From Brachycybe producta (lineage: Eukaryota; Arthropoda; Diplopoda; Playtdesmida; Andrognathidae), in contig JAUPFP010000014.1 in the NCBI GenBank assembly GCA_036925085.1, positions 1,616,001 through 1,680,000 on the forward strand: 64,000 nucleotides of DNA, given 5' to 3'. The notes beneath the pieces are model-generated. The model was not told the origin of the DNA, made no database searches, and saw only the letters and a list, made by a program, of their open reading frames with translations. The position numbers were made by a program, and so were the translations under genes. Shown in pieces: positions 42,211 to 63,609 of the stretch. How positions within the stretch are numbered: position 1 is the stretch's first letter; each line of letters starts with the position of its first letter.

Positions 42211-45200
42211 CCTTGTTATCAGGAACTCTGAAGACGTTTCAGGCTTATGCCTGTGACGGTGATTCTCTGAGCATCAGGTGTCCTCATGGAACCACAATAA
42301 GTGTTCAGGTGGCTCAGTATGGACTTCCGGTTGCTCATCACCACGTGTGTCCACCTAGGGCCACGGACGATACTTTTCTTGTTGCTCAGACCAGTGAAAA
42401 TGTCAGCTGTTTGGCGTCGGACACTTTGAAAGTAGGTTTTAAAACTTTTTTTCATAAAATCTGTATACTTAGCACTTGAACTTTTAACATTTGAACCCTC
42501 TTAACAGGGGTTTTCCAACATCAGAAAAAATGTTTTATTGGATTCTCTTGAGTGATGCTTTTTCTGTGTTGTGGGAACCCTGTTTTGAGGGTTAAAGTTG
42601 AAATTCAAGTGCCATGTTTCCTACTTGAAATTGAGTTGTATTTTTATCTTGTTCTTAAAACTTTTGTCATAAAAACTGATGATTTCGTAAATTGACGAGT
42701 GATTTTTTTTTTTTAGAATAACTGAAATTCAAGATGAAAACTTCACATTTTGAACCATCCTGAACCCTCCTCCACATTTCATGTTTTGATATCTTTCAAA
42801 ATAAACTTTTTATAGAGTTGGGGGTTTATTTTCAAACTGTCATAAATAGGCTTATTTTGAAAGATATCAAATATGAAAATATCCTTAAGTGATTCAGATA
42901 TACTCTTCTAGTTTCTAAATCATTTTCAAGTTTCTCTTGATTTTTTGCTTCTGAAAGACAGAATAATCAGAGTTTGATGGGGTTCGGATTTTTATGCAAA
43001 TATATTAAGCAAATATTTCTCAATTTTTGTAGCCTCTACAAGGTGCCAATTGTGAAGTCATTAAGAGCAACTGCAATTATTTTTTTTTCTAATCAAAAAG
43101 GCTAGTTCGAGGCTATATGTCTGGTTAGAGCTTACTATCAGTTGTCAACTAGAGTTCTAGCCTCTAACCAGCTGTTTTTGATTGAAAAAATTACGTAATT
43201 GTTGGTTGATCTCGAAATTGGGGGATTGTTACTTCACAATTGGCTCTTGAGCCACAGATTGAGAAACTTTTGAGTGATTATATTGCATAAAAATCCGAGC
43301 CTTAGTTATTGTTATGGTGGTTCTACCTACTTTGCATTCACCCTGTACTTAATCCATATTAAAATACAGAAAAACCAGACTAGAAAATGGAATAAAATCC
43401 ATATAAGAATTTCCTTTTAAGAATATAGAATACAAATGAAAGATTGGAAACGCTCAGTTGGGCTGAAAGAATCAATTTCTTTTCGTTTAGTTTTGGGGGA
43501 AATAAAAGGACCCAGGGGTGGGGTGGAGTACGGGGGTTAAGGTGGGGCTCAAAGATAGACAGAATGAGATGATATTCTTTCCTATGGACTCTCGCCATTG
43601 GAATGTGAGCGATTTTTTTTGAGGTTTCTCTCTTTTTTGGCAAAAAAAGATCACAAATGAAAGCTGTTCATTTTCTCTCTCTCTTTCTATTGATAGATTT
43701 TTTGTGGATGGTTTAAATAAACTCATGGGTCCCATTTTTATATATGAAGCCACAATGGAATCCCACTCAATTTATTGATCTGGATTAATAATTATAGGTG
43801 GCGCTAGGGTAGAACTAGAAAAAATAGGTGAATTATTATTTCTTTGAGAAAAGATAGTTTACCTCTCAGATTTCGAGGAAAATCTCTCAAATACATATTT
43901 AAAAATTAAATTAAAATAAAGATAAATTTAAATTTAAAATTAAAATTAAAGTTAAAATTAAATTTAAAATTAAATTTAAAATTAAAATTAAATTTAAAAT
44001 TAAATTTAAAATTAAATTTAAAATTAAATTTAAAATTAAAATTAAAATTAAAATTAAATTTAAAATTTAAAATTAAAATTAAAATTAAAATTAAAATAAA
44101 CAATAAAAATAGATAAAATAAAATTTATATATGTTATGTTATATATGTTAAATTATATGCAATTTAAAATATCAAAGATTTTTAATTTTGTTTTTAATTA
44201 ACTAGTTCAAATTTTGCAATTTAAAAAATAGTTCGTTTTTTGATTTATTTATATGAAGAATTTTAAACTTTTTTTTTTAATTTTCATTGTATTTTTAATT
44301 AAGTAGCTATTTTAAAACTTATTATTAAATTAAAAATAAATAGCAGAAAGATTTTAACTACATATTTAGATTAAAGTCAGATTATATTATTAATTATGCG
44401 CATATATTCAAATTAATTATGAAAAGATTTCAATTTTCAATTTTAGATTCAAAATTGACTTTCGGTTTCAGTTTATGAAACATGTTCTCTTGTTAGAGAA
44501 GAGAAACAGAAGAAATTGAAAGTCTGTTAGAAACTAGAACTTTTATCTGAATCACGGTAATAGTAATTTCATCTTAAGTGACTGAGGCTGCCAGAGCAAC
44601 CCTTCCAGTTTCTAAAACACTTTCTAGTTTCTTTTAATTTTGCTTTTGCCTAACCTGATTACGAAAATCAAACTGTTCATAAAAACCATCTTAAAAATGA
44701 TTAAGTTTCTCAAGATGTTTTTGATTGAAATGGTGGACCACCACTGTTGAAAGAGTGTTAACATTTTTAAGAATTTGGAATTTTTTTTTTGTTTTTTGAG
44801 GGTCGGAATTTAGGGGGTTAGGAAATTGCCAAAAATGGCTGCTTTCCAAAATGAAAACAAAAAAACAAATATACATCTTTTTTTTGGTTTTCTATATTTG
44901 TTTCTTGTTTTGCATTCCAAGTCCTGAAATAACGTTTTTGTTTTTTCTTTCAAAGAACACCCAACTTTTTTTTTTGTTCTTCTTACAACAACAATAAAAA
45001 AAAATACTTGGCCACATCATTTTTACTAAAGCAATACTTTAAAATAAAGTTAATGACTTGTTTTAGTTGTTGTTTTGACCTACGAAAATTGCTTTTCGGC
45101 TCTGAAAATAAACAAAACTTTTTCAAGTTTTTAAAGTTGAAACTACAAATTAGCTTGAGATGGTTTTATGAACAGTTGGATTTACGAAATCAGATTATTC

Positions 45201-48200
45201 TCTTGTCTTTCAGAAGGGAAAAATTAACAGAATATAAACTATTATTATTAGAAACTAGAATAGTAGCTGAATCACTTACATGTATTTTTGTGTTGATATA
45301 TATCTTTCAAAATAAACTTTTTATAGATAAAATTTAAAAGAATATCGTCTGCTTAAATTTTGTCATTTTGAACTCAAACATAAAAAGGTTGATTTTAAAA
45401 GATAATCAACAAGAAAAATACCCTTAAGTGATTGAGCTACCCTTTCTAGTTTCTAAAAACACTTAATGAAGTTTCTCTTAATTTTACTCTCCTGGAAAAA
45501 AAAAAAACAGTTCAAGCAGTGTTTAAATTGAACTTAATTTAAATCAAAGCAAACTTCTGATTTAAACGGGTGTGGGACATTTGCCCTAAAGGGTCATTTG
45601 CCCTAAAAGGACATTTGCCCTAAAAGGACATTTGCCCTAAAAGGACATTTGCCCTAAAAGGACATTTGCCCTAATCAGTAGTGTAAATGTTTAGGGCAAA
45701 TGTCCCTTTGGGATAAATGTCTTTTTGGGGCAAATGTCTTTTTGGGGCAAATGTCTTTTTGGGGCAAATGTCCCTTTAGGGCAAGTGTCTAAAAGAATCC
45801 TTGAATTCTCATATGAATGTAACAATAATTGTATTTGTGAAATGAATTTGAGGCTACTTCTGAGACACACCCTGTATATTTGCATGTTATCTGATTGAAA
45901 TAATTTGCAGACATTCCTTATGATGGGCACAGTATCAATTATTACAGGTGGTTGTTGCGGCCTGTCAAGAAAAACGTCAATGTAAAGTAATGACAGCACC
46001 GAAAACATTTGGACTTCATCCTGATCCTTGTCCTGGGATTAAGAAATTTGCAGAAGTCGCCTACAAATGTAGACCTCGTAAGTTTTTAAATTTTCTGTTA
46101 GTTTATTTTCAGCTTTTTGTTTGTTTGTTAATTAATATGCTGATTTTGTAATCAGATGAATTTATTACGAAAGTAATATGTGAAAGGGACCAATTACATC
46201 TCAAGTGTCGAAAGGGATCACGAATTGCGATTTATTCGGCCTCGTTTGGACGGACTTTGCACGGCAATGTGGAATGTCCTCAACCGGATGGAGTTGCCGA
46301 AGAAGGTAAAATGGTATATTTTATTTGTAAAAATGCGTAAAAAAACAGCGGGTGGAGCGGCATTTCGCGATATACAACATTTCGAGTAAATACTTTGCTT
46401 GATCCTGATATAAGTCTGCCTTGCGTTGCAAAAAAATTAATAAACAATGACGCCGGCCAGGACACAGGCAGTTAGAAATCGGGGAGAACTTCAGTTGGCT
46501 CCGCCCTTGTTATGACGACTGGCAACTTCTAATTGGTTGGTTATGTAGTCTGACGTTACATGCTCCGCCCTTTTCAACGTCGAACCACACAACAAACCAA
46601 TTAAAAGTTGCCGGTCATCATAACAAGGGCGGAGCCAACTTCTGTTTGTCCCGATTTCTAACTGCATGTGGCCAGGACTGGAACCAAGGACCTCTCTCAC
46701 TTCTCTGCCAAAAGACATTACCAATTTTGTTACCAATGTAAATTGTGAGATCAAAAGTGACCTCTACCGTAACCCACGTGGGTTAATTTATTCTTTGAAA
46801 AAAACGTGGTGTAATAAAGCAAGCTTTCCTGGCTGCCAACTTTAGACGTTCAGGGGTTCTAGTGAAATTTGATGATTTTTCACAAAAATGTGGCCAACGA
46901 AGAAACCCATCTAAAGATGTGTATACTGGTTAATTTTCACGATGCTAGAGTGTGTAATTTCAGAGAACATTCTTGCACAAAGGGAGGGAAGGATACATAA
47001 ACTAGTGGGGTAGCCCGTCATAAATGACGGGAGCAAAATTCACAGGCAATTGTGCCCAGCATTAGAATTTCTTTTCCTCCGCCCTTTTATGACGTCAGAC
47101 CAAGTAACAAACCCAATTAGAAATTGATGACGTTCATAAAAGGGCCGAGCAAAAGAAATTCTAATGCTGGTCACAATTGCCCGTGATAAATTCTAGTTTA
47201 ATTTTGCTACTATTATCCCCTCCCCTTTTTATATTTGAAAGAGAAAATGAGATTTTCATTTTCTCTGGTGTGCTCATGCGCGTCGTTTGTTCCTATTTTT
47301 ACTCCTTTCATTTCAATTTCAGTCACCCCTCCCACGTTTTCTCCCTCTACGTTACCTCCCCTCTCTACACTTTCCAACCTTTTCCCCCTCTCCAATTTAA
47401 TATCATGGGGTTCTTGGATGGGGAGAGTGCAACTTAATCTTGACCTTGAGAAAAAAAAGCGGTTCATTTATTTAAATTTATATAAATTCCGACGTGCTTC
47501 AAGGTCTTTGTCCTTGTTTGTACAGCGTTACTGACTCAGGGAAGTAAGGAAGGAGAGAAATAAGGAATAGACCTGGCTTAATATATATATATAAAATAGA
47601 AGAAGATAGAATGTTTTTGGCTCACTTTAGAATCAACTTTTCGTTTTGAGTTAAATTTCTTATATATATTTTTTGTGTTGCTATTTTTTTTTTATATTAA
47701 AACCTAAAACAATAGATTGTCTTGCGAGTTACTCAACGGAAGCTGTGATGAGGATATGTCACGGTAAAAGGAAATGTACGATGATGGCTGATATTCAGAC
47801 GTTTGGAAATCCTTGTGCTGACAAGTCTAGAAGTTATCTAAAAGTTGTATACACTTGTGGTAAGATGACTTTTTTTTTGTTTAAAAAACAAAACAAATTT
47901 CATATCGAAACTTCTTTTTTTTTTGTCAATTTCGTGACAATTTAATTTAAAAAAAAATATAATTATCTTTTTTCATTTTGTTGTGATTGTCGCCTGAAAG
48001 TTGGCAACCACTGTTAACTCAACTGTAATACAAAAATACAGAGTGATTCAAAATAACAAATAGCTTTAATCTTTTTTTTTGTGGAAAATATAATTTTGTG
48101 ATAAGTTGGTTTACTAAGCAATAAATTGCAACATGAAATTCTTACACTCGAATATTTTTCAAGATTCGCCGGATTCGATTGGATTCAAATGGACCGTCAC

Positions 48201-50970
48201 TAATTATAACATAAATAATAATTTTAGAGAAAAATTTCTAATTAATTTTTTTTTTCATTTGTGATTTTAAAAGTTCCAACTCGTATTCTAAAGAACATGT
48301 ATCAGAATGGAGGCGACGGTGATGATTACGAGGGAGAAGGAGAGGCCGAAAGTGAAGGAGACGAGGAATTGGTCGACGAACCGAGCTACAGGTTGCCACC
48401 GACCTCAAAAGACGACGCCGAAGAACGGATCAGTAAGACGGCAGTGAGACCGACAAAAGAATCGAAGAAGAAAAATGGTAAATTCAACGTTTTTATTTAA
48501 TTTTTCCTCATTTGTCGTATTTGTGATTAATACGCATGAGTTTCTGCCATTTTCTGTGTTTGTTTTTGTGTTTTTTTAACGAATTTTAACTAACTCGTAG
48601 TTATTCCAATTGTTTCGAAACAAAAAATCCCCTTTTTATGTTGGTGTTTTTGTCGTTTTTATTTTACTTTGTTAAACAGAAAATCTGAGCAAAACGTCGC
48701 AATCGTTACCGACGTTGGCCACAGCTCCAATAAGTACAACAAAAGACATTCAGGGTGATTTTAGTGAAGAGGATTTCGGTGCTGTTGGAGTTGGTTCGGA
48801 CGACAGTCAAGTGAATTGTACCGTCGTAGCGAAAACGGACGATGTCGTGTCTGTCGGTGTCGTTACCGAATGGATTTCGGCTTTTAATTTTCTTCGAGGT
48901 GCGTATGTCTGTGTTTTGTTTCATTCTGTGGCTCCTTTGTTCGTAGTTGTGTTTTTTATGTCTTGTTTGTTATACACGATGTTAAGTCGCATGATTTTAA
49001 TTGTTTTTTGTTTTTTTTACGACCGTATTTTTCATATTTTTTGTGTAATTAAGTTGAAAATGGTTAATGAACAGCTGATTATTCTGTCTTTCAGAAGAGT
49101 AAAATTAAGAGAAACTGCCATAGTTTATTATGTTATTCTAAATCAGTGCCTCAGAGGTAAACTGTGTTAAGTCATATTTTTTTTTTTTTAAAAAAAAAGC
49201 GATTTTTACATATTATTAATAAGCTTGTCAAGTTCTATCAGCGGTAAACAGTGTTAAGTCCATAGTTTAACACATATGCCGCTAGATTGTTGTATACTGT
49301 GTTAAGTCCTATTCCCTTCAATGAAGAGAAAAACTTTTGACTGACTCCCCTGTAAAATTTAGGTTTGGTGACTTAACACAGTTTACCTCCGAGGCACTGA
49401 AATGATTTATAGTTAAACTTCTAGTTTTCAAAACACTTTCAAGGTTTTCTTAAGATGGTTTTTAAATTGTAACTGTTTTCCAAACTATTTTGTCTTTCAG
49501 AAGAGCAAAATTAAGAGAAACTTGAAAGTGTTTTTTTTTAGAAACTAGAAGGGTAGCTGTGAATCATTTAGAAATTATTTTCCACATAGATATCTTTCAA
49601 AATAAGCTTTTTATGTGTCATTTTAAAAAGCAGATGATATTATTTAAATTTTTCTACAAAAAGTTTATTTTAAAAGATAACAAACATGAAAATATTAAGT
49701 GATTGAGCTACCCTTCTAGTTTCTACAACACTTTCAGTTTCTCTTTAGAATTACTCTACTGCAACTCTTAATAAACACGTATTCGAAAATCTGTTCTTCG
49801 TAAAACATCTTAAGATACAATTGAAAGTGTTTTAGAAACTGGAAGAGTAATCACTCATTTTCATGTTAATTAAATATATTTTAAAATAGTCTTTTTTTTG
49901 GGGGGGGGGGGCAGTTTGAAAATGGCCGAATTTAAAGTTTATTAACATAATTAATTATATGATTTATTTTTTTAATAATTTATTAATTAATTCATTTAAT
50001 ATTAATTCTGTTTTAGTATTAATTATTGTGAAAAAGCAACACAAAAAAGAGAGTATGAAATTTTCATAAAAAGTGTTGATGTTTAAGGATATCAACGATG
50101 AGAATCGTCATAAGCGATTTGTTTTACTCTTCTAGTTTCTAAAACACTTTCAATTTCTTGTGACTGTTGCATCTGAATTGCAGTATAATCAGATTTCACG
50201 TTCATATCAGAATTCTTTTTCATTGTTTACGTTAAAAAAATGAAGGCTTGAACACACACTGCCACATTGCAGCCACAAACAAAACATCCTCGAACAGCCT
50301 GGAGCTGGTTGCTCCGGATGGAAAAGCACAGCGAACCGTGTAGGGTGACAAGTATCACACACTTGACACCGAGACCAAACGTTTTGTCTCTTCTTGTCTG
50401 GTCAGTGTGCGATACCTGCCCTCACTTTTACGTGTTCGCTGTGCTTTTTCGGCCGGAGCAACCAGCCCCAGGCTGTTCCAAAGTGCGCTAGGCTGTTTTG
50501 TTTGCGGCGTTCTGTCTAAATGTTTAATTAAAAATTAAATTATTCAATTTAAAATTAATGAAAAAAACCCCTCCGATTAAATGTTATTATATTGTATGTA
50601 ATTCTAGTCTTTTTGCTTTATTTTATTTGAAGGCAATAAGGAGAAACTGATCTTGTATCTGACAGTGAGCATTTCGACCGGTTTGATTGTGTTCATGTTC
50701 GTAGTCATAATAAGACTGATCTATCAGAAGAGACGCGAACGAAAAAGAGCAAAACTAAACATTTCGGAACCACTTCCGAACGGATTCTGCGATGATTTTT
50801 CCGATATAGATCAGGACATAACTGATCTTTCTCACGTTAGTCCGCAGAGGCAGGATCCGAATGTGGCGGTCGTTCGTTATACGAATAGGTCGACGATGAG
50901 GCGACAAGACAGCGATACGAATCCGAGAGCTCCCATTACGAGAAGCCACAACAATTTCTACTACAGCTAA
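42211..50970 (+). CDS. EVA1C: EVA-1 homolog C-like SUEL-lectin membrane receptor, 5' end missing
   Basis: Exons: 42211-42431, 45948-46077, 46156-46305, 47716-47859, 48274-48477, 48680-48898, 50633-50970 (stop TAA). All introns are GT-AG and all phases fit, giving 467 residues. The first exon opens with two bases of a split codon, so a signal-peptide exon lies upstream, unseen. Two SUEL/galactose-lectin domains (about residues 11-116 and 125-214) are each split over two exons and hold the family's Cys pattern, AYACDGD, CLASDTL, TFG..PC and YKC. An acidic linker (GDDYEGEGEAESEGDEE) follows, then one membrane span (about 361-386, LYLTVSISTGLIVFMFVVII) and a basic cytosolic start (QKRRERKRAK). 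EVA-1 proteins bind glycans and act as SLT/Robo co-receptors in axon guidance in C. elegans. Another SUEL membrane protein is possible, but conserved linkage to CFAP298 favours EVA1C. Confidence 0.85.
42780..42960. mobile_element. FB2 foldback MITE in EVA1C intron
   Basis: Paired GATATCTTTCAAAATAAAC and TTGAAAGATATCAAATATG, then TTAAGTGATTCAGATATAC and CTTCTAGTTTCTAAA. It is an intronic insertion. Confidence 0.65.
42983..43303. mobile_element. hAT-like MITE in EVA1C intron
   Basis: It runs from GTTCGGATTTTTATGCAAAT to TGCATAAAAATCCGAGCC and shares the ACTATCAGTTGTCAACTAG core with 55105-55394. The terminal bases are mutated, so no clean target duplication is visible. Confidence 0.8.
43908..44103. 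repeat. TTTAAAATTAAA AT-only array
   Basis: About 195 bp of AAATTAAAATT/TTTAAAATTAAA mixtures in an EVA1C intron. The 65-codon minus frame is low complexity. Confidence 0.9.
45240..45480. mobile_element. FB2 foldback MITE in EVA1C intron
   Basis: The left arm is AGAAACTAGAATAGTAGCTG with GTTGATATATATCTTTCAAA. The right arm is TTAAGTGATTGAGCTACCC with TTTCTAGTTTC. Just before it, TTCTCTTGTCTTTCAG (to about 45212) mimics a 3' splice site. Confidence 0.7.
45568..45790. repeat. Opposed CATTTGCCCTAAAAGGA and GGGCAAATGTCTTTTTG arrays
   Basis: Five to six copies of GGACATTTGCCCTAAAA are followed, after CAGTAGTGTAAATG, by five copies of the inverted word. The left border GGGTGTGGGACATTTG matches, inverted, the right border of 19911-20303. 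It lies in an EVA1C intron. Confidence 0.85.
46464..46669. mobile_element. FB1 foldback MITE in EVA1C intron, perfect 9-bp duplication
   Basis: Arms run from ACAGGCAGTTAGAAATCGGG to GATTTCTAACTGCATGT. GGCCAGGAC is repeated at 46455-46463 and 46670-46678. It lies about 160 bp after the exon ending at 46305, in a 1.4-kb intron. Confidence 0.95.
47042..47184. mobile_element. FB1 short variant in EVA1C intron
   Basis: Arms run from ACAGGCAATTGTGCCCAGC to GTCACAATTGCCCGT. Flanks GCAAAATTC and GATAAATTC agree at 7 of 9 bases, a decayed target duplication. Confidence 0.8.
49144..49399. mobile_element. CAGTGC MITE flanked by AAAT, copy 2, in EVA1C intron
   Basis: Ends CAGTGCCTCAGAGGTAAACT and AGTTTACCTCCGAGGCACTG are inverted. 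AAAT lies at 49140-49143 and 49400-49403. It appears inserted into an FB2 arm (49080-49140). Confidence 0.85.
49480..49860. mobile_element. FB2 foldback MITE cluster in EVA1C intron
   Basis: TTTTGTCTTTCAGAAGAGCA, AGAAACTAGAAGGGTAGC, then the inverted AGTGATTGAGCTACCCTTC plus TAGTTTC, then a further arm AGAAACTGGAAGAGTAATC. Confidence 0.7.
50262..50514. mobile_element. GC-richer foldback element in EVA1C last intron
   Basis: Left arm: ACAGCCTGGAGCTGGTTGC, TCCGGATGGAAAAGCACAGC. Right arm: GCTGTGCTTTTTCGGCCGG, AGCAACCAGCCCCAGGCTGT. It ends about 120 bp before the transmembrane exon. Confidence 0.8.
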
Positions 50971-51179
50971 GGGGGGGGGGGGGTTCTTTGATTTTCGAGG
51001 TAAGTAACTTCTAAAATGTGTAGAGTCTGCAAACAGTCCAAAAGGGGGCTTATGACAGAGGGACAATTTAGTCGACAAACTGCATAACAAATGCATGGCC
51101 TTAATAAATACACGTGCCTTAAAAATTTCAAGATTAGAAACTCGAAGAGTGAAGATGGCATAGTTAATTTTCATTACTG

Positions 51180-51600
51180 ATATTTTTAGAAACTAGAAGG
51201 GTAGCTCAATCACTTATAAGGATATCTTCACGTTGATATCTTTCAAAATAAACTTTTTATGCCAGGTTCAAAGCGATCGAACTTTAATTAGACGACGTTT
51301 AGTAGACTATTTTTTTTTTATTTTTGTCTACGAAAAAGGTTATTATAAAAGATATAAATATGAGAGTATGCTGAAGTGATTAAATTACCCTTCTACTTTC
51401 TAAAACGTTCCCTGATTTCTTTTAATTTTACTTTTTAAAGCCAGAATAATCAGAATTTGAAAATCAACTATTCATAAATAAAAGTATAAAGTTGAGTCGT
51501 TTTCAAACTCACGTAAAAAGTTTATTATGAAAGATATCAATATGAAAATATGCTGAAAAAATACGCTTCTAGTTTCAAAAACACTTCTTAAATGTTGCTT
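51180..51600. mobile_element. FB2 foldback MITE cluster
   Basis: Arms AGAAACTAGAAGGGTAGCTC with GTTGATATCTTTCAAAATAA, then AAAAGATATAAATATGAGAG with AAATTACCCTTCTACTTTC, then a third inverted arm at about 51520-51590. Confidence 0.7.
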
Positions 51601-51639
51601 CTCGAAATCCAGAATGATCAAAATAGTTTTTTTTTGTAG

Positions 51640-52053
51640 AAGTGGGACGAATTCTAAATTTTCTCGAATCCGAATTCGAATCCTAAAAGGTTCTCGAATT
51701 CCCCGAATCCTTCATATAAGAATCGTATATTATTCATTAAGAAGATACAAATAAATGAAATAATATTAAATTTTAAATTATTAATAATAAAAAACACAGT
51801 GTGTGGCGCTCAGGGTCGCCACAAGGTGATCCATTGGTGATCCGGATACCACCGAATTTGCAACAATCGCCGGTTTTTTTGTTAGTGAACACTTCTATTT
51901 GACATCAATGTAGTTGAAACTAATTTTACCAAAGTTTTTAACAGGTTTTTTTAAGGTTAGGATTCGAAAGACGAGAAAAAAGCGCGAAGATTCGAGTTTT
52001 CGAATCTCAAATATTTTTCAAGATTCGAGGATTCGAATGTGTCCCAACCCTAG
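51640..52053. mobile_element. TTCGAATC foldback element
   Basis: GTGGGACGAATTCTAAATTT to GAATGTGTCCCAACC. It shares the GGTGATCCGGATACCACCG and CAATCGCCGG interior with 13605-14156. Confidence 0.75.
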
Positions 52054-52145
52054 TTTTTTTGTATTTTTTATTTTTTCGTATTTTATTTAAACATATTTTT
52101 ATTTTTTTCCAAAAAAAATGACTAATTTTTAACTTTCATTTTCAG

Positions 52146-53018
52146 CTTTGAAATCTCTTTCTCTCACTCTTTATCTCTTTCACTCACCTTAATCTCAGGA
52201 TGTTGTAAGGATTTAAGGGCCTTTTTTTAAAAAAAAAAATGGTTTTGTTTTTTCCGCTAAAAAAAAACAGCAAATTCCGAACTTCGCTATCCTGAAGCTA
52301 CACGAACTTTTTTTAAAGCTCTTGCTTTAAATCATTCTCTTAATCTCTAAGTGATTTTTCTAGCTATTCGAGTGCAATTCGGATTTTATATATAAAAACC
52401 CTGTGAGAATTCTCTCTTTTAGAACATTTTTTTGTTTATGTGTTCTTTGATGATGATGAACCCATGAATAACAAATATTGGACACTTCGACTTCGACTCG
52501 GAACTTTCTCTCGTAAAAATCTCTTATATCGGGTTGCCTCTTCGTACCTGATGCTCACTAAACTCTCTCCGTTGTTTTTTTTTTTTTGTTTCCTTATATA
52601 TTTTATTTGGAAAGAAAAATAAGGTAAATTCGTCTTCGGTGTGTATGCGTTTTTTGATACCGGTTCGTCTCTCCGATTTTTATAACGATTTTTTTTTCTC
52701 TTGCGTCTAAAAAGCCCAAAAAAAACAACTAAAATGTGACGGAAATTTGCTCATTAGATTTCATTTTATTATAATATAAAATATAATAATAATGAGGGGA
52801 AAAAGAAAAAAAAAGGTTTTTATTTTGTTTGCATTTTCGAGAAATTGCAGTTTCGTATGAAATTGCAAAAAAAAAATGAATTTGAGTGATTTTTATGTAA
52901 AAATAATTGTATATGCAAAATTTACGAATTTTTTTCTTTCTTCCGGAGTCCGCAATATGAAACATATTCTATAACAAGAAAGATTTATCTTTTTTGTTTA
53001 GATTTTAAGATGGTTTTA
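52146..53018 (+). other. Possible 3' UTR of EVA1C, AT-rich
   Basis: It follows the proposed UTR acceptor. No coding potential is seen. T-, A- and GATGATGA-runs are present. The transcript end cannot be placed. Confidence 0.35.
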
Positions 53019-53278
53019 GTGGCCCTTTGGCACACACAGCAAGGCGACTTTTGAAAGACTTTTTTTTTGGAAACAAAAAAAAGAAGTTGAAGGTCGCTGA
53101 GTATGGTCGTTGCAATGTATTTTATATGGAAGGACGGCAACCTTGGCACGCAGCCGACTTTTAACTGTGTGTCAAAGTTGGCGTCTTTCCATAGAAAATA
53201 CAATCCGGCGACTTTCGACTTCATTTTGTGGTCAAAAAAAAAAAGACTTTCAAAAGTCGCCTGTGTGCCCAAGTGCCT
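53019..53278. mobile_element. Foldback element, ends GGCACACA..TGTGTGCC
   Basis: GGCACACACAGCAAGGCGAC plus TTTTGAAAG and the inverted CTTTCAAAAGTCGCC plus TGTGTGCCC enclose further inverted blocks (TTTTATATGGAAGGACGGC, GTCTTTCCATAGAAAAT). No ORF is supported. Confidence 0.8.
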
Positions 53279-53324
53279 TAATTCTTCGAATTCTGATTAT
53301 TTTGTCTGAAAGGTTGCAAAAATG

Positions 53325-53595
53325 AAGAAAAACTTGAACGTGTTTTAGAAACTAGAAAGGGTATCTCAATCACTTAAGCCTTAAGGGTATTTTCATGTTG
53401 ATATCATTCAAAATAAGCTTTTTATAGACAACTTTTTTTTTAAAAAAAAATATCGTTTGCTTAAAGCTGGATCATTTTAAAACTGATATAAAAAGTTTAT
53501 TTTGAAAAATTTCTACGTGAAAATATTCGTAAGAAATTTAGAACTTTACACTTCTAGTTTCTAAAACACCTTCTAGTTTCTCTCCCATTTTGCGG
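53325..53595. mobile_element. FB2 foldback MITE
   Basis: AGAAACTAGAAAGGGTATCTC with GTTGATATCATTCAAAATAA and the inverted TTTATTTTGAAAAATTTC, then ACACTTCTAGTTTCTAAAAC. Confidence 0.7.
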
Positions 53596-54984
53596 TTCTA
53601 AGCAGAGTTCGAAAATCAGCTGTTCATAAACCATCGTAATTGTTTTCCGATCTAGCAATAAGATTGCTATTTTCTTTTGCTTTTTATCATATTTTAGTAA
53701 TTTCTTTTATAATTGAATTATGGTTATTAATTTTTTTCTTCTAGAAGTTTGACTGAATAAGAGCTAATTGAAAAAAAAGTGCTAAATAGGAGATTACCAC
53801 CAAAAAAAAGCATAGTTGACTAAATTTAGTTGTTATTCTAGGTTTAGCTGAACTGGCCAGTTCATCAGTTACTGGAACTGATAGAACCTGGTTCGCCAGT
53901 ACAAGTCGAACTGATAAGAAATGGTTCCGAACCGAGTAGAAACGGTTCGGTACAATTTCTTAAAGAATTAACTGCTAAATAGCATATACAATGAAAACCG
54001 TTTAACACGAAAAATCGGATAGGTTTTATTTATGTATTTTAATTCCTTCAGACAACACGGATAACATGAACTTCGGTTAACGTGAAAAAATAAGCCAGTT
54101 CCTTCAATTTTTTGTGTTAAGAAGTTTTCACTGTATGATGTTTTTAATTACAGGGAAAACTACGTTTAACAAGAATTATCGAATTAACCGAATTTTGTGT
54201 AATCCGTTTCGTCTTAAAGGCATTAAATCACAGTGAACACCGTTAAACACGAATAATCGGTTAACGCGGAAATATATTTTCAGTTCTGTTCCTCAGTATA
54301 GTGTCCCCCCCCCCCCCTTGTATTTTAATTCCTTTTAACACGAAACAGATAATACGAAATTCGATTAACTCGAGAGAAAAAAATACGCTTGTTTCTTTAA
54401 TTTCGTGTTAAGTGGTTTTTCACTGTATTATGTTTTCGATTACAGTTCAAACCACGTTTAACATGTTAAATGAATTTCGTGTTAAGAGAATTTTTATGTT
54501 ATTCTAACAGATTGGACCGAAAATATCGTGTTAAACGGTTTTCACTGTACATTTTGGCCTTAATTATGGATAATATTCAGTTTAGCTGTTTTAATGTAGC
54601 TCTTATTTAGTTTTTCTTCCTTATTGTGTAATTTTTAATATTGAAAGTTTTTACGATTGCCTTGATTCAGACATATCTCCATTTATAATATACATAGTTA
54701 TGAATTTTTTAAAATTTAGTTTTTAATGCTTTTTTTTTTATAAATTAATCAGTGATTTTATTTTGCGATGTTGTTTTTTTTTTGTTGTGTAAATTCATTG
54801 ATTTACTTTTATTTAATTATTAGTTTTGTACAGAATATTGTACGTAACGTGTGTGACGAGTGTTTTTTTTTTGCTCCTGGTGCCAAGTAATTCTTCTTAC
54901 GGTAAAGTTTTTATTTTTATGTAAAGCGTTTTTTAAGTTTGTATAAAAGGCAATTAAGTATAGGTGGGTTCAATTCGGTACAGT
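53596..54984. other. AT-rich intergenic DNA with GTTTAACACGAA words
   Basis: 53855-53955 is a GGTTCGGAA-family block. Between about 53985 and 54550, GTTTAACACGAA, ACCGTTTAACACG and GTTAACGTGAA recur in both orientations, an unidentified decayed repeat. A C run lies at about 54306-54318. No gene is seen. Confidence 0.5.
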
Positions 54985-55480
54985 AATTTAAAAAGTAACT
55001 TATAAGTTACATTATCAAATTTTAACTCTTTTTAAAAAAAAAGTTATCCTGAGAAGAAATTTAATACAGTAATTTAAAAAAGTAACTATAAGTTACATTA
55101 TCATTAGGGCTCGGATTTTGCTGCAAATATCTGCAAAACGTTTCTCAATCTGTGGCCCGAGTGTCAATTATGATGATCATCATTAGAGCAACTACAATTT
55201 GCTTTTTTTTTTTTTCTAATCAAAAAGCTCGTTAGAGGCTAAAATTCTGGTTACTATCAGTTGTCAACTAAGAGTTCTAGCCTTTAACAAGTGTTTTTGA
55301 TTAGAAAATTGCCCTAATGATGATGATTACAGTTGGCACGTGGGCCACAAATTGAGAAACGTTTGCTTGATATTGCATAAAAATCCGAGCCCTAATTATC
55401 ATTTTATTATCAAGTTACTTTTCAGATTTTAACTTTGAAAGTTACTTTTTAAGAAGTAAATTAAATAAAAGTAACTTTAA
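54985..55480. repeat. AAGTAACTTATAAGTTACATT repeat split by a hAT-like MITE
   Basis: Words of AGTAACTTATAAGTTAC and AAGTTACTTTT occur before 55104 and after 55395. The insertion 55105-55394 divides them. Confidence 0.65.
55105..55394. mobile_element. hAT-type MITE, 290 bp, perfect 8-bp target duplication
   Basis: The ends are inverted: TAGGGCTCGGATTTT and AAAATCCGAGCCCTA. ATTATCAT is repeated exactly at 55097-55104 and 55395-55402. An 8-bp duplication and YARNG-type termini are hallmarks of hAT transposons. No transposase is present. Confidence 0.92.
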
Positions 55481-56268
55481 ATTTAGTTATTTTTTTGTAC
55501 TAAACTACCTGAAATTTTATTTCAAGAAGGAAACTAAATTAATTTAAATTTAAATAAAGTTTATTTAAAGTTTTGTTTTAAGAAACAAATTTAACAAAAA
55601 TTACTTACAAATTAGTTTTTTTTAAAGTAACAATTTCGAAGTCAATAAAATTAGCAAATAAACTAACCCGGCCGTATTCTAAAACGTTACTTAAAACTTA
55701 AGTGAAACAAAGTTAATAGAGATGTCAACTATTCGGAACCGGTAGAACCATTTCGCCAGTATAGATCGAACTGGTTCCGAACCGAGTAGAAACGGTTCGG
55801 AATCAGTTCTAAAAGTTAAATTTAAAAAAAAAAAACGTTCATTAGACTTCCACTATATAGTTTTGTCTTTGCATCATTGTTTAAGCTTAACTTTTATTTT
55901 AAGCAACGTTATTTTTTTTATACGCAATATCAGTTACTTCCATGAAATTTGTAGTTTTGTGTTTTGAATTTACTCGATGATTTTCACACAACACACTCAC
56001 CCTCTCTGTCTCTCTTTCTCCTTCCCTTTCTCTCTCTCTCTCTTTCACTCCATACCATACCGAATAATGTTTTTATTTTCTATTAATTTCTCTGTATATT
56101 TCTTATAATCTTGTAAAATTACAAGTTGTAGTTTTCTACCTGTATATTACAACAAAGACATATATTTCTCGATTTGAAAGAAGAAAAAAACCTATTGTAA
56201 AAAAAACCCCACAAAATCGATGATGATAAAATTGTACAAAAGTAATAATTTTAATTCTTGAAATATTG
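55481..56268. other. AT-rich intergenic DNA between two convergent genes
   Basis: It includes a GGTTCGGAA-family block at 55725-55805 and a CT-rich patch at 56000-56045. No gene is seen. Confidence 0.5.
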
Positions 56269-56395
56269 TTTATTCGAAGAAAAAAAAAAGAAAAGTGAAA
56301 TGCTACAACGAGTTTTTAATGTTACAATTAAATTATGTATTCTTGTTTCTTGTAAAAAAAAAAAAAAAGGACAATGATGAAAAAAAGGGTTTATT
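56269..56395 (-). terminator. Poly(A) signals for CFAP298
   Basis: AATAAA (minus strand) lies at 56390-56395, only 6 bp after the stop codon, and again at 56269-56274. If the first is used the 3' UTR is extremely short. The second is the conservative choice. Confidence 0.45.
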
Positions 56396-56401
56396 TTTCT
56401 C

Positions 56402-57834
56402 TTATGTTGGTTTCCATCCGATATCTTGAACACCGTGAAAAGCTCGTTTTAAACTTTGTTGATCGGCCCATTTCGAATCTAAGTAACTGTCATCTTCGTC
56501 AACTTCGAGACGCTGGTAAAGAAAATCTCGTAATCTCGAGAAAGAGAGAGAGAGAAAAAAAAGCAAAAAGGTGAATGTGTTTTACTTTTAATTCTTCTTG
56601 TCTTTGATAAGCTTGGAGCATGAGTTGTTTTCTTTGTTCTTCGGTTAGAGCCGGTTCACGTCTCGGAGGACCTTCCTCTGCCTTGAAGAAAAAAAAAATT
56701 ACAACGGCAATGCCAACGTATTTAAATTTTCGAAGGTATCGTAATATGAATCTTAGAAGAAGAAAAAAAAACCAACTAACTTTCTGAAGCACGACGATTA
56801 TTTTTGTTTTCTCGTTGTCACCAACGTAATCCTTAAGCGTCTTGTTTAATTTTAATTCTTTTCCGGCCCACCATAATTTGGCAATTTCTGTTTGGATTAC
56901 TTCTGGTTCGATCTAATAACGATTTAATGTTTTAAAAATGAAAAAAATATCTTAGCTCGAGTAAAAAGATTAAAAAAAAAATATTAAAATTCAAAAAATT
57001 GCAAAAACTAGATTTTTTTCTTCTTCAAAAAATACCCTAAAAAAATCGAAAAAATATGTAAATTCTTAGTAAAGTAGTAGATACTCCCTTAGAAGTTGTA
57101 ATCGTACTTCGGTGGCTTGGAGTTTCTCGTCATTCTCGAGTTCACTTTGAATCGGATCGTAATGAGGTAAACCCTTAGGATACGCAATGTGGACTGTACC
57201 CTTTAACGCGTCCAGAACGTCCTGTATGGTGGCCAACGTCAAACAAGTGTCGGCCTCTACGGATTTATTCGAAACGGTCGATCTTGCTTCCTTGACCACA
57301 CTAATCAATAACTCGGACATTTTCTTGTTTGGAGCTAAGTTACAAAATCCTTTTTTTTTAATCTTATAAAAAATATTTACGAATTCCTTTTTTTTCTCTT
57401 TGTTTGTACCTTTTCCATTACGAATTCCATTGGGATCTTTGTTTTCGATGTAATCATCGTCACTTGACCTGTGGTCAACTAAATTCTGCTTCTTTATTTG
57501 GACATTGGTCAAACCTTTCTTTTCTGGTGGAAAAGATGGTCCATACTTTGACAACTGCTCTATTTCTGTATATGTATAGAGAAAAAAAGTGGATTTGTTT
57601 ACATTATTATACTGTATATATGCAAATTAGCCATGTGTTTCTCGGAACACATGGCCACTTATGCGCGTCCCTGGTCAACATTCACGAACTTTTACCGTTT
57701 GATATGCGATAAACTTTCAATCTGCCGTTATAAATGGCAGTTACATCGGTTACAATGTCACTTATTTTTGTTTCGGTTGTTGTTTCATATTGAAATTGAC
57801 TTTCGTCTCGTCTCTTGACGTGTAACTTCACCAT
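56402..57834 (-). CDS. CFAP298: CFAP298 (C21orf59/Kurly) cilia- and flagella-associated protein, complete
   Basis: Exons on the minus strand, 5' to 3': 57834-57696, 57565-57410, 57334-57108, 56912-56781, 56681-56586, 56512-56402. All introns are GT-AG and the phases join without a break: 286 aa, against 290 in human. The protein starts MVKLHVKRRDESQFQYET and keeps family signatures along its length: IYNGRLKVYR, LSKYGPSFP, YPKGLPHYDP, LWWAGKELKLNKTLKDYVG, QRKQLMLQAYQRQEELK, and the end KWADQQSLKRAFHGV then QDIGWKPT. CFAP298 is a cytosolic factor needed for outer dynein arm assembly and cilia motility and polarity; human loss causes primary ciliary dyskinesia. It diverges from SON across 201 bp and converges on EVA1C. 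Introns are short and free of transposons. Confidence 0.97.
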
Positions 57835-57863
57835 TTTGATTATTTGCGGTTTTGTTGTTGTTT

Positions 57864-57877
57864 GTTGCTATGGAAAC
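57864..57877. promoter_or_regulatory. RFX X-box motif
   Basis: GTTGCTATGGAAAC fits the 14-base RFX consensus RYYNYYATRRNRAC at every position. RFX factors switch on ciliary genes across animals, and the motif lies 30 bp upstream of the CFAP298 start codon. Function is inferred from the match and position. Confidence 0.75.
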
Positions 57878-57890
57878 CGAGAAAATTGTA

Positions 57891-58011
57891 ATGGCGGCGG
57901 CGGCGGCGGCTGCTAATCTAATTAATCTAATTTCGGCGGCGGCGATTAGAAATCAAATTATACGCGGCTAAAATGGCGTCGCTTCTGCATGTTGTTTTTG
58001 TTTTTCGTTGA
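57891..58011 (+). other. Two consecutive uORFs before SON
   Basis: ATG at 57891 opens a 26-codon frame beginning with seven alanines (stop TAA 57969-57971). ATG at 57973 opens a 12-codon frame (stop TGA 58009-58011). The SON ATG follows at 58036. They matter only if transcription starts upstream of 57891 or 57973; the start site is not visible. Confidence 0.4.
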
Positions 58012-58035
58012 ATTTCACGTAATTTAACGGTAATT

Positions 58036-61000
58036 ATGGCCGTAAATGATTCACAAGAACCTCAAAAGTCTTCTTCACAGATACTAGATGAAATATTTCG
58101 CGAACTCGAAGAGAAAACATCAAAGGGTGAGATTGCGGTAACAGATTTAGCGAGACTAATCGCACAAGTTAAAGAAATTTCGTCTGGTTCTGAAGAAGAA
58201 TCTGTCAAATCTCATGATAAAACAAAGAAAAAACATAAACACAAACATAAAAAGTCGAAAAAACATAAAAAGAAACATAAACATAAGAAAAAAAGTGACA
58301 TTTCTGAGGAGAAAGTTGTGTTTGTTCAGTCTGAATCTATCAAGAAAGACGTTGTCAATGAGAATCAATTAGAAAACAAAGATTCTAAACAAGAATTAGA
58401 CACAAAAAAAGACTCAAATGCATTAGAATCGAAAGGTGAGACACCGAAAGAGTCAAAAAGTGGACCAGAAGTATCGAAAACTATTGAAATAAGTTCAGAA
58501 GAAGTCGAAAAAGTCTCACAGGACGCTTCAAAGTTGATTAACGACGACTCTAAAGTTTCTGTAATTGAGGAGGGTGAAATAGGTTTGATTTTCCACTTAT
58601 TACAAAGTGTTTTTGTGTTCTTGATGATTGATTTCTTTTGCTTCAGAAGATGAAAGTGATGATGAGACAAAAGGAACGAAGCGTAAAAGTAAGAAACAGA
58701 AAGGGACAGTCTCTAAAGTATTGAAATCTTCAATCGTTTGCGTAACGGATGGAGATTCTACTAAAAAAAAGAAAGACAAAAAGAAGAAAAAGAAGAAGAA
58801 ACGGATTAAACGTTTCACTTCGCCATTGTCTTTACATACAACGAGATCACGTCGTTATTCGTCTTCGAGTTATTCGCGATCCGATTCTTCGAGTTCTCGT
58901 GATTCGTCCCTCACTGGTCGTAATAGTAAGAGGCAAGTAGGAATACGACTTCCGCATCTTCACTGAGCTTAATATTGTTAGGGTTCTTTTTTTTTAGGTC
59001 TCGGAGTCCAATAGCGAGGAGAAATCGAAGAACTGACTCGAGAGAACGCAAACGGTTTTTTTTTTTTCTAAACTCATTTCAAACTCATTCAAAAAATAGC
59101 TAGAAATAAAAAAACAATTCAAATGTTATGTCTCAGAAGCTTAAAAAATTCTTTAAAAGATAGAAGAATTTAACAAAACTCGAAAATAACAAATATGAAA
59201 TGTTGTTCGATTATTCTCAGTTCCCGTTCTGCGTCACCGAGTAATGTTATCGATAAAGCTAAACTATTGGAGATCGCTCGTAAGAATGCAATGGCGATGA
59301 TGGCACAGGGAAGACTTCCTCCCGGTCTTCCGGCTCCACCGAAACCAGAAGAACCTGTTTTCAGACGAACCGGAAAATCGGTTGCTGAACTGACAGGTCT
59401 ATTTTTTTTTACGTTCTCGTTTTTATGCAACTATGAAAGATTTTTTTCTCGGGTTTCACTTAATGATTTGAGTATTTTAGATTTTTGTAAACTGATATCG
59501 AAGAAAGAATTTGAAGATGACGATTTAGAAAGCGACGGTACAAAGACAAACGAAGATGGAAGTAAAACATTCATTCATCATCCTTTTAAACCACGAGAAC
59601 GACAACCGGATATCGTCATGAGAATACGAGTAAATTAACCGATTTAAACTATTTTATCTTTTCATTTTTTTAGTGAATTTCGTATTTCTTATTTAAGAAT
59701 GCAGTTCAGATTCCAACGAAAACATCGGCAGAAAAAGTTGCCGAAAGTTCGACTAAACTAAGAATCCAATTTCCAGTTTCGAGTGGAACGCAACATCGTA
59801 AAAAAGAATCCGAATGGGTTCCGGTTTCACCAGATAAGGAACAGATCGATAAATCGTCATCAAATTTAGCCATCGAAGCTCCGACTGCAATGTTAGCGCT
59901 TCCGGCCCCACCTCCGCCTCCTCCTCCACCACCTCCTGTTTCCATTCCCGTTCAAACTCAACCACCACCACCAGGAGTTTCTCCTCAGGATTGTGTTTTT
60001 CCCGAACAACAAGCGGCCGTAAGCTCGTATTTTCATCTATCTTTTAATCTCGTTCTGTCATCTTTTTCGCATTGGTTTTTTTCTTACAGGTTCCTCAATT
60101 AGATATCGGTGCCATCGTCTCGCAACGGTTACAGGCCGTTAGAAAACTGATGGATAATCCTAACGATGTCGTAGCATTGAGTCAAATGTATAAATCGCAG
60201 AAAGAGGTAACCAGAGTTGTTTTCGACAGTCGTAACGTGGTCATAATTTGATTTGTTTTTTGTTTGTTTGTTTGTTTTTACGAACTTAAAAGATGCAAAG
60301 TTGGGCTAAATCAAAGCATTTACCCGGACAGTTTACCGGTACGACCGATGTTACATTACTGACCCCACAACAGTTAGCGGGTCCGGCCCATTCACAGGCG
60401 TGGGTTCGAAAGGTAAAAGTGTAAAATGAGAGATGATTCGAAGTCTCTTCGTCTCTCTGGGTCTTAAAAAAAAACTAATGTGGCCTGCAACAAGGTTTCA
60501 CACAAGACACTTAATGGGTTGGTGTTTCGAGAAACGGTTTAAATTATTTGAAAAAATTGTTTGGTTCTCATTTTCGAGGAAAGAAATTTGGTTGAAATTA
60601 TTTCATTAGACTCGAACTCGTTATTTAAATGAAAGTCTTTTAAGAGAAATGACGATTATATGACAAGCTTAGAACTTGGAAAGAACTGAAATTTATTTAT
60701 AGAGTGTAAGCGGTCCTTGAATTCTTGATTATTCTGTCTTTCGAGTGCAAAATTTACAAGTGTTTTAAAAACTATAAAGGTAACACAATCACTTAAGGGT
60801 ATTTTAATATTAATAGCTTTTAAAATAAGCTTCTTTGTAGACAAAAGATTCAAAAAATAGCATCTGATTTTTCTGGTTTTCAAAAGAAAAATTTAAGGGT
60901 AACTTAAAAGTGTTAGAAACTAGAAGGGTAGCTAAATAACTTACGGCTATTTTCATGTTCATTATTTTTCAAAATAAACGTTTTATAGGTAAAAATCTAA

Positions 61001-63609
61001 ATGTATCATCAACTTCAGTTTAAATTGTCAACGCTTCACAAATTGCGGTAATATTGTCTTTTAGGAGGGAAATTTAAGAACAGCTCGAAAGTGTTTTAGA
61101 AACTAGAAGAGTAGCTCAATCACTGAAGGGTATTTTCATATTGATATCTTTCAAAATAAGCTTTTTATGTGAGTTTGAAAATGACCCATACTTTCAGCAG
61201 ACATTACGTTTTTGTCTATAAAACGTTTATTTTGAAAAAAAAAAATCAGCGTGAAAATACCCTGAAGTGATTTGAGCTACACTTCTAGGTTGTAAAACAC
61301 TTCATAGTTTTTCGTAGTTTTGCTCTCAAGTTATGCTCTGAAAGACAGAATAAACCATAACATCGAAACAATTGTTCACTTTGAAGTTATTCTAATAGGA
61401 ACATGTTAAATGCTCTTATATGATTCAGTTACTCTTCTAGTTTCTAAATCATTTTTATATTTATCTTAAAGTTGTTTTCAAAGTGAAGAATAATTAATTT
61501 AATATCAGTTGTTTATACGAGACATTTTGAAACAGAATGTTTCAAAAATTGTTTCTCGAAACATCAACCTATTAATTAAATTCTAAATCAATAAAATGAG
61601 AAGAAAGAAAAGACATGTTAAAATGTTGGTAGTAACCGAATGACTAAATCAAAACAACGTTTAGATTCATTCGGTTACAACCAATCGAACCGAAAACAGT
61701 TCGCGGTCATCACGGTTGCTCTGATCTTTCGAATTGAATTCTTTGAAACCGTGATGACCAATGGAAAACTTGTTGCAGACTCGCATTTGGTTGTCAAAAG
61801 GGTCCATCTAGGTTCCTCTTCGGATGATTTTTATCGGTTACGACCTGTTTTGTTGTGGCGCTTCTTAATAGGATGTAGGAATGGACGAGTGAGTATTTGA
61901 AAACCTTTCTTTCGGAAGGTTCGAATTGGGTAGCTGACAAGCTGCGTCTGAACCGAAGATCTTTTAACATTTCCGGTTCAGACGCAGCTGTTCAGAGTTT
62001 ACTTATCTCTTATTTTGTCCCTTTTATTTATATTTTTTTCGAGTAATTTATTCTTTAAAGAAATTAATTTAAATTTAAGGCTTTTTTTTAACAAAAAGAA
62101 GAATATGGAGATTGTTCTTTTATTACCAAACTTAAAACATATTACTAAAAACTTTCTACAGGACCAATTTACTCGTGCTACTCCAGTCCAGAGTGGATTT
62201 GGAATGCACATGTTGCAGAAAATGGGTTGGAAACCAGGAGAAGGTCTCGGAAAGAATAAAGAAGGAGCGGCCGAGCCGCTTATGCTCGATATTAAGATGG
62301 ATAAGAAAGGTGCGCCGACATTTGTCAAAACGTCACTTAAAGAATTCTTATGAGCAACATTTTTTTAATAAAATTATGATTTTTTAATGAAGAATAAAAA
62401 TAATAAAATTTTTATTAGAAACTAGAAAAGTCAACGAATTTTAAAATGGCATTTTCGTGTCAATATCGTTGTAAATGAACATTTTTACGCTTTATGGTGG
62501 TTTGAAACGAAAATTTATGTTTTTAAATTTATTATTTTGTCGAGTTAGAGGAAATTATAAACCCGAACGTCGTTAACATTGTTACGTAAATCCAATTATT
62601 ATAATTCGGTCACTTTTCTTGTTTCAAATTTAAATAAACCTTAATCAAGATTTCCAAAAAGCACTTTGTCAAAAAAAAAATTCAAGTTACCTCTTAAAAT
62701 ATTTTATGAATTTTAAGAAAAACTTGAAAGTGTGTTAGAAACTAGAAGGGTAGTTCATTCACTTGATATTTGATTCAATGATATTTTTAATGTTGATATC
62801 TTTTTAAAATAAACTTTTTATATTAGTTTGAAAAGGACTAAATGTCTATAAAAAACGTTCATTTTGAAAGATACTATCATGAAAATAATATCTATGTGAT
62901 TCACTTATCATTCTAGTTTCTAGCACATTTTGAATTTATAAATAATGTTGCTCTTCTGAAAACGCAGAATAACCGAAAGTTTTTAAAAAAAAAATTGTTC
63001 TTAAAACGCGTTTTGTCCTCCACTTATTGTGCTAAATATTGTTTTTTTTTGTGTGTTAACGGTAAAGGTCTCGTTTCACAAGATGAGATTATAAGGAAGA
63101 ACCGAGTTCCAAATGCCCCTGCCGCTGTTAAAGATCTTTCTGGGAAACATCCTGTATCTGCACTCGGTGAACTTTGCAGTAAAAGACGTTGGCATCCTCC
63201 TGATTATACGGTCGTATTTGATGGAGGACCAGAACACAAGAAAAATTTTGTTTTTAAGGTAATTTCGAAAGTTTTTTTTTTTGTTTTTAAGCTCATTTTC
63301 AAAACGACCCATCTTTTGTCTTAGAAAAAAGTTATTTTGAAAGATATCAAACACAAAAATACTATTAAATGATTCAGTTATTTCTTTTTGTTTCTAAAAC
63401 AGATTTATTTTTTAATTAAGTGTTCTTCTTTTGAAATTGCACAATAATAACGTTTTAACGTAAATTTGTTTTCACAGGTGAAAGTAAACGGAGTCGAATA
63501 TCAACCGACAATCGCCAGTTTAAATAAGAAGCACGCAAAGGCTCAGTGTGCAACCGTTTGTCTTCAGGCTCTCGGTTTAGTTCCTCGTGATCTAAGCAAT
63601 CCACTGTGA
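58036..63609 (+). CDS. SON: SON DNA/RNA-binding splicing cofactor homologue, complete
   Basis: Exons: 58036-58582, 58647-58932, 58998-59054, 59221-59396, 59481-59629, 59698-60018, 60090-60206, 60293-60412, 62162-62309, 63068-63258, 63478-63609. Phases fit throughout: 747 aa. Order: a short acidic N-terminus, a Lys/His tract (about 64-86, KKKHKHKHKKSKKHKKKHKH), a Ser/Glu-rich part, a second Lys tract and an RS region (about 225-300), DKAKLLEIARKNAMAMMAQG, HHPFKPRE, FPVSSGTQHRKKE, a poly-Pro stretch, a G-patch (about 602-641, GWKPGEGLGKNKEG), and a double-stranded RNA-binding domain (about 665-738, HAKAQCATVCLQALGL). The C-terminal half aligns block by block with human SON, a nuclear-speckle scaffold for weak introns. 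The large vertebrate repeat region is absent. Intron 2 is GC-AG, and the donor after exon 3 (CG|GTTTTT) is weak. Confidence 0.96.
60413..62161 (+). other. SON intron 8 with FB2 elements and a hairpin cluster
   Basis: It is the largest SON intron at 1.75 kb. FB2 arms lie at about 60750-60830, 60900-60990, 61090-61310 and 61425-61450. Three perfect hairpins lie in the AT-poorer part, 61632-61989. Confidence 0.75.
61632..61989 (+). other. Three perfect hairpins in SON intron 8
   Basis: Hairpin 1: GTAACCGAATGA (61632-61643) with TCATTCGGTTAC (61667-61678). Hairpin 2: GGTCATCACGGTT (61705-61717) with AACCGTGATGACC (61747-61759). Hairpin 3: AGCTGCGTCTGAACCG (61940-61955) with CGGTTCAGACGCAGCT (61974-61989). 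An 86-codon frame overlaps, but conserved exon joining leaves no room for it in SON. They could be a structured RNA or small foldback relics. Confidence 0.6.
62310..62407 (+). terminator. Candidate intronic polyadenylation site in SON
   Basis: Reading through the exon 9 donor (GTGCGC at 62310) adds 14 codons to a TGA at 62351-62353. AATAAA follows at 62367-62372, 62393-62398 and 62402-62407. The predicted short form keeps the G-patch and loses the dsRNA-binding domain. Use of this site is inference. Confidence 0.45.
62410..63067 (+). other. SON intron 9 remainder with FB2 elements
   Basis: FB2 arms TTAGAAACTAGAAGGGTAG at about 62738 and inverted TTCTAGTTTCTAGCACA at about 62912 form one pair. 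Another arm starts after exon 10, near 63330-63400. Confidence 0.65.

Follow-up and report, generated by a model that had tools for sequence, protein, structure and literature searches.

Three ordinary conserved animal genes, an EVA1C-like gene, CFAP298 and SON, which code for a guidance receptor, a ciliary protein and a protein of RNA splicing, lie side by side in the window, which here denotes the whole 64 kb stretch of DNA that was analysed (C14:1616001-1680000). The explanation considered probable overall is that of an ordinary conserved trio in which the EVA1C-like gene and CFAP298 are a leftover of ancestral gene order and CFAP298 and SON share a bidirectional promoter, with no larger block of human 21q22.11 type found around them. 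On comparison of the human order with that of this one genome, the EVA1C-like gene and CFAP298 plausibly form an ancestral pair; CFAP298-SON as an ancestral pair and an ancestral animal block of all three genes are both unproven. What has survived here of ancient gene order may be a small piece at most.

The genome assembly comprises 295.3 Mb in 442 contigs and, judging by its genes, is that of an animal; contig C14 (4,813,181 bases) makes up 1.6% of it. The three genes are immediate neighbours in the order EVA1C-like (+), CFAP298 (-) and SON (+). This order and these orientations, claimed by the initial annotation, are borne out by gene models, splice sites and Pfam domains. The EVA1C-like gene and CFAP298 are convergent, with their stop codons 5431 bp apart, and CFAP298 and SON are divergent, with their start codons 201 bp apart. 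Rfam and tRNA scans of the whole 64 kb window found nothing. The genes and their exons are as follows (window positions).

42211..50970, + strand, EVA1C/EVA-1-like gene, 7 coding exons found, stop included, start exon not found
42211-42431, 45948-46077, 46156-46305, 47716-47859, 48274-48477, 48680-48856 and 50633-50970 (stop), + strand, exons of the EVA1C-like gene
57834-56402, - strand, CFAP298 (C21orf59/kurly), 6 exons, 286 aa, complete
57834-57696, 57565-57410, 57334-57108, 56912-56781, 56681-56586 and 56512-56402, - strand, exons of CFAP298
58036..63609, + strand, SON, 11 exons, 747 aa, one stop
58036-58582, 58647-58932, 58998-59054, 59221-59396, 59481-59629 and 59698-60018, + strand, first six exons of SON
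60090-60206, 60293-60412, 62162-62309, 63068-63258 and 63478-63609, + strand, remaining exons of SON

All five introns of CFAP298 are of the GT-AG type. The protein shows a near full-length match to PF11069 (E 3.4e-40) and matches the flagellar associated protein of PDB 9k9m across residues 1-226 (E 2.3e-37). PF11069 was matched at one locus in the whole genome, which is the CFAP298 gene of the window. One scan of a viral contig collection with CFAP298 found no relative. CFAP298 is described in the available part of PMC8836003 as a cytoplasmic factor for dynein-arm assembly.

SON contains nine GT-AG introns and one GC-AG intron (intron 2, splice site at window 58933). The protein matches the Pfam models for the G-patch (E 2.2e-14) and the dsRBD (dsrm, E 6.2e-13). 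An RS-rich region, read off the sequence, is followed by the G-patch and then by the C-terminal dsRBD, which we take to be the features of the SON family. A repeat is present inside a SON intron (window 61019-61353). With positions 61000-61600 as the query, 113 matches were found among the 40 candidates scored; the matches lie on both strands and in many places, which points to a palindromic mobile element or a hairpin repeat.

The head-to-head CFAP298/SON pair would constitute a compact bidirectional promoter. The SON side would be expressed constitutively, whereas in ciliated cells an RFX factor would increase expression on the CFAP298 side through an X-box beside the start codon. RFX control of CFAP298 would be expected because the protein is a dynein-arm assembly factor. 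The shared promoter contains the following features.

57835..58035, no strand, 201 bp separating the start codons of the divergent genes CFAP298 and SON
57864..57877, - strand, RFX site of X-box-like type, read as GTTTCCATAGCAAC on the - strand or as GTTGCTATGGAAAC on the + strand, 29 bp upstream of the start codon of CFAP298
57970..57978, + strand, YY1-like motif AANATGGCG, within the shared promoter

The ratio of observed to expected CpG is 2.36 in the 201 bp, compared with 0.91 in the surrounding 264 kb. The loose X-box form RYYNYY N1-3 RRNRAC is matched on either strand by the site at 57864-57877. Its + strand additionally matches RYYRYY N1-3 RRNRAC as well as GYTRYY N1-3 RRHRAC, the restricted fly form; the site gives no match to the tight forms GTNRCC/RTNRCC N1-3 RGYAAC. 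These consensus forms were taken from the available parts of PMC4168999 and PMC2375033. The strict form GTTNCCATRGNAAC, which was written after the site had been seen, occurs once in 64 kb with 0.02 expected. The loose form shows no excess in 264 kb (24 matches, 29.1 expected), and neither does GYTRYY N2 RRHRAC, the restricted fly form, in 64 kb (2 matches, 2.72 expected). The evidence is therefore the place of the site within the 201 bp, where about 0.01 matches to the restricted fly form are expected by our own reckoning, and not its mere presence. According to the available part of PMC2375033, the presence of an X-box in a single species is not predictive of RFX control, and conservation is the better predictor. 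The AANATGGCG motif has 33 matches in 264 kb with 6.45 expected, and it is weak evidence because many of the 33 matches are clustered. We take this motif to be of the YY1 type.

The human gene order of this region, as given in the available part of PMC12652779, is MRAP, URB1, EVA1C, TCP10L, CFAP298, SYNJ1, PAXBP1, C21orf62, OLIG2 and OLIG1, followed by IFNAR2, IL10RB, IFNAR1, IFNGR2, TMEM50B, DNAJC28, GART, SON, DONSON, CRYZL1, ITSN1 and ATP5PO (antisense, readthrough, snoRNA, LOC, LINC and MIR entries left out). In the same list, TCP10L alone separates EVA1C from CFAP298, CFAP298 is separated from SON by 12 genes taken as protein-coding, and EVA1C from SON by 14 such genes, TCP10L to GART with CFAP298 counted (PMC12652779). 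The description of EVA1C and CFAP298 as neighbours in human needs correction: the two are near-adjacent in both genomes, but TCP10L intervenes in human. The proposal that the short CFAP298-SON promoter helps to lock the gene order is weakened by the 12 genes between the human CFAP298 and SON, and is unproven.

In human, EVA1C and CFAP298 are presumably convergent and GART and SON presumably head-to-head. The human 21q22.11 segment likewise holds EVA1C, CFAP298 and SON, the first two nearly adjacent and, on this assumption, convergent. However, TCP10L separates the first two in human and 12 genes separate CFAP298 from SON, and in the present genome the URB1, GART, Syja_N and GCFC matches are on other contigs. 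The human GART-SON pair, taken as head-to-head, resembles the present arrangement in that SON stands beside an unrelated 5' gene, whereas the partner of SON here is CFAP298, and GART is on contig C36.

Four further families of the human segment (URB1, GART, GCFC/PAXBP1 and Syja_N/SYNJ1) were sought genome-wide, and none matched contig C14 (4.8 Mb) in a search that evaluates exons one at a time and may overlook genes. Contigs are not chromosomes, and C14 could still share a chromosome with the contigs that carry these 21q22.11 genes. The profile search of the genome matched URB1 (Npa1) on C127, GART (GARS_A) on C36 and the GCFC family, which presumably includes PAXBP1, on C3 and C154. Syja_N was matched at four loci (C10, C16, C21 and C36), one of which should be SYNJ. 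Linkage of SYNJ1 to GART on C36 was considered and rejected, as the Syja_N gene on this contig is FIG4 (best PDB chain 7k1w, Fig4, E 3.8e-123). The URB1-like match at C127:18109-18600 belongs to an open frame that runs for 1907 residues with no stop, which is odd among the intron-rich genes of this genome; the frame may be a retrocopy, the DNA of another organism or a real large exon.

A codon-use score trained on the genes of the region, which can miss others, was applied to the flanks over 264 kb (C14:1516001-1780000); many weaker segments that look like repeats were set aside by eye. Twelve genes were named to the right of SON, in the order CTP synthase, NELFB (COBRA1), ALAD, GTF2B, GTF3C5 (Tau95_N), a RABGGTB-like gene (Prenyltrans), an SCFD2-like gene (Sec1), QSOX (FAD_SOX), two torsins, a LAP1_C gene and a stomatin-like Band_7 gene. 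The Pfam cut-off is passed by 11 of these, the exception being the Sec1 gene, and the RABGGTB subtype was assigned by eye. Two further gene-like segments on this side have no Pfam match. We take NELFB, ALAD, GTF3C5, QSOX2, TOR1A/TOR2A/TOR4A and STOM to be genes of human 9q32-q34, QSOX1, TOR3A and TOR1AIP1/2 to be genes of 1q25, CTPS1, GTF2B and RABGGTB to be genes of 1p, and SCFD2 to be a gene of 4q. With human places so assumed, none of the 12 named right-flank genes is from 21q22.

The dense gene run at C14:1682498-1770717 (L009-L018), with human counterparts presumably mostly on 9q32-q34, 1q25 and 1p, hints at the ancestral linkage group of C14. In a part of this run beyond the window, a pair of torsin ATPase genes (-) adjoins the LAP1_C torsin-activator gene (+) at C14:1729348-1738300 (L013 and L014), which is a head-to-head arrangement of an enzyme and its activator.

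To the left of the trio, the codon-use scan recognised no gene within the window. This side of the window contains the end of a satellite array.

1..5318, no strand, right end of a 183 bp satellite array, left of the trio

The whole array is 46 kb long (C14:1574958-1621318), with 253 copies and 93% matches, and is possibly a heterochromatin or centromere-like block. Beyond it, two low-complexity genes or gene-like frames are present at C14:1534734-1542200 (-), one Gly/Pro-rich and the other Asn/Gln/Asp/Lys-rich with repeats. One of these frames was tested against Pfam and gave no match over the cut-off.

No wider 21q22 block was found around the trio: none of the four families matched C14, the right-flank genes are presumably elsewhere in human and a satellite lies on the left. 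The initial annotation had read the three linked genes as an ancestral animal block; this reading is upheld in part, for the gene identities, the EVA1-family identity of the SUEL gene and the near-adjacency of EVA1C and CFAP298, but a wider 21q22.11 neighbourhood (0/4 families, 0/12 flank genes) is not supported. The flank result indicates that two or three genes matching a human band are insufficient to identify a conserved segment.

Two gene orders of 20,000 genes each that are unrelated would have about 2 pairs of immediate neighbours in common by chance, and about 1 pair genome-wide when one intervening gene is allowed and the right orientation is required (our own rough reckoning). A single pair chosen after the fact is therefore weak evidence by itself. 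Known ancestral gene pairs of human and invertebrates run to hundreds, so ancestry is a likelier explanation of the observed pair than chance, although a single pair is no proof. The convergent EVA1C-like/CFAP298 pair would most likely be a remnant of ancestral animal gene order. As in ancient metazoan microsynteny pairs, unrelated neighbours may have been kept over deep time, and a short divergent promoter is present; in contrast to those pairs, conservation here is drawn from two genomes only, and a regulatory bystander relation is not part of the case. Should other phyla turn out to have the pairing as well, it would count as one more ancestral gene pair, small and well defined, and would make promoter sharing between a ciliary gene and a housekeeping gene open to test in one concrete case. 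Among the titles and abstract openings listed, a literature search found no description of an EVA1C-CFAP298-SON neighbourhood outside vertebrates and no usable description of the 9q34 gene set. The available part of PMC2447486 contains none of the gene names sought, and that of PMC7269912 has no occurrences for human 21 or 9q34.

A tentative, somewhat improbable alternative is that EVA1C, CFAP298 and SON were all adjacent in the animal ancestor and that the human lineage later split SON off, beside GART. All three are genes of 21q22.11, where 14 genes of the human list, taken as protein-coding, separate EVA1C from SON (available part of PMC12652779), and they are immediate neighbours here; by our own reckoning, SON would be the next gene by chance in about 26 of 20,000 cases. 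On the other hand, the four further 21q22.11 families are absent from the C14 matches, and a common ancestral linkage group alone would give some closeness. In an extended form that we regard as unlikely, the ancestral block carried an RFX-controlled ciliary gene and a constitutive splicing gene on one 201 bp promoter, and vertebrates broke it when SON moved to GART.

It is distinctly unlikely that a chance or lineage-specific rearrangement brought the trio together and that the likeness to human is a coincidence picked after the fact. About one such pair is expected by chance across two genomes (our own reckoning), the named flank genes presumably do not match 21q22, and the 46 kb satellite lies on the left; satellite arrays are a setting prone to rearrangement. 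However, in a randomly chosen window it would be unlikely for all three genes to belong to a single human band and for two of them to be near-adjacent and in the same relative orientation, and the ordinary conserved trio with an ancestral EVA1C-like/CFAP298 pair is preferred.

The EVA1C-like gene has a single frame open across all 7 exons and GT-AG borders at each of its six introns; its stop codon is at 50968-50970. The exon with the start codon (signal peptide exon) was looked for and not found. The protein contains two SUEL/RBL domains (Pfam SUEL_Lectin, E 1.6e-29, two stretches), one transmembrane segment, read off the sequence, and a short cytoplasmic tail. The available part of PMC2430599 describes membrane proteins with RBL domains as latrophilins, PKD1-like proteins and the C21orf63/EVA-1 proteins with two RBL domains and a single transmembrane segment. 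In nematode EVA-1, Glu42 is replaced by Asp in the first RBL domain, and the second domain lacks both that Glu and Lys120 (PMC2430599).

The corresponding columns were read from alignments with latrophilin chains, with Glu42 and Lys120 numbered by our own count along chain 2jx9. The N-terminal RBL domain of the EVA1C-like protein has Asp at the Glu42 place (CDG for CEG) and keeps the Lys, and the C-terminal domain has Ser at the Lys120 column. The C-terminal domain keeps Glu42 (CERD), so that two of the three nematode EVA-1 changes are present. The loss of Glu42 from the C-terminal domain is a mark of nematode EVA-1, not necessarily of the whole family. At the C-terminal end, the FAM176 model gives a weak match (E 0.0068, 16.7 bits, under the cut-off of 31.5).

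By architecture and binding-site residues, the SUEL gene is best assigned to the EVA-1/EVA1C family, to which it would belong. Placement in a different family, raised in the initial annotation as counting against its own proposal, did not emerge when architecture and residues were judged rather than a tree. The two RBL domains, one transmembrane segment and altered sugar-site residues are likewise those of Caenorhabditis elegans EVA-1 and mammalian EVA1C (C21orf63), of the Slit receptor family, whereas the FAM176 tail is barely recognisable here and Glu42 is kept in the second domain.

The profile search of the genome with PF02140 (SUEL) matched two loci, the EVA1C-like gene and C33:1122056-1122585. 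The EVA1C-like gene itself was detected at only E 1.4e-4, near the limit of the search, so further SUEL genes may have been missed. The C33 gene runs on into GAIN (2.7e-32) and GPS (5.7e-13) domains and an HRM match under the cut-off, and is therefore a latrophilin; the identification of the EVA1C-like gene as the latrophilin was rejected. That the gene of the window is some other rhamnose-binding-lectin gene, with the argument then resting on CFAP298 and SON only, is very improbable: the sub-threshold FAM176 match, the C-terminal Glu42 retained unlike in nematode EVA-1 and the search near its limit speak for it, but the architecture and two of the three substitutions described (available part of PMC2430599) fit EVA-1, and the sole other SUEL locus matched is the latrophilin. 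In this latrophilin gene (L032, - strand), the part that encodes the second half of the RBL domain occurs twice, about 425 bp apart, as tandem domains or alternative exons.
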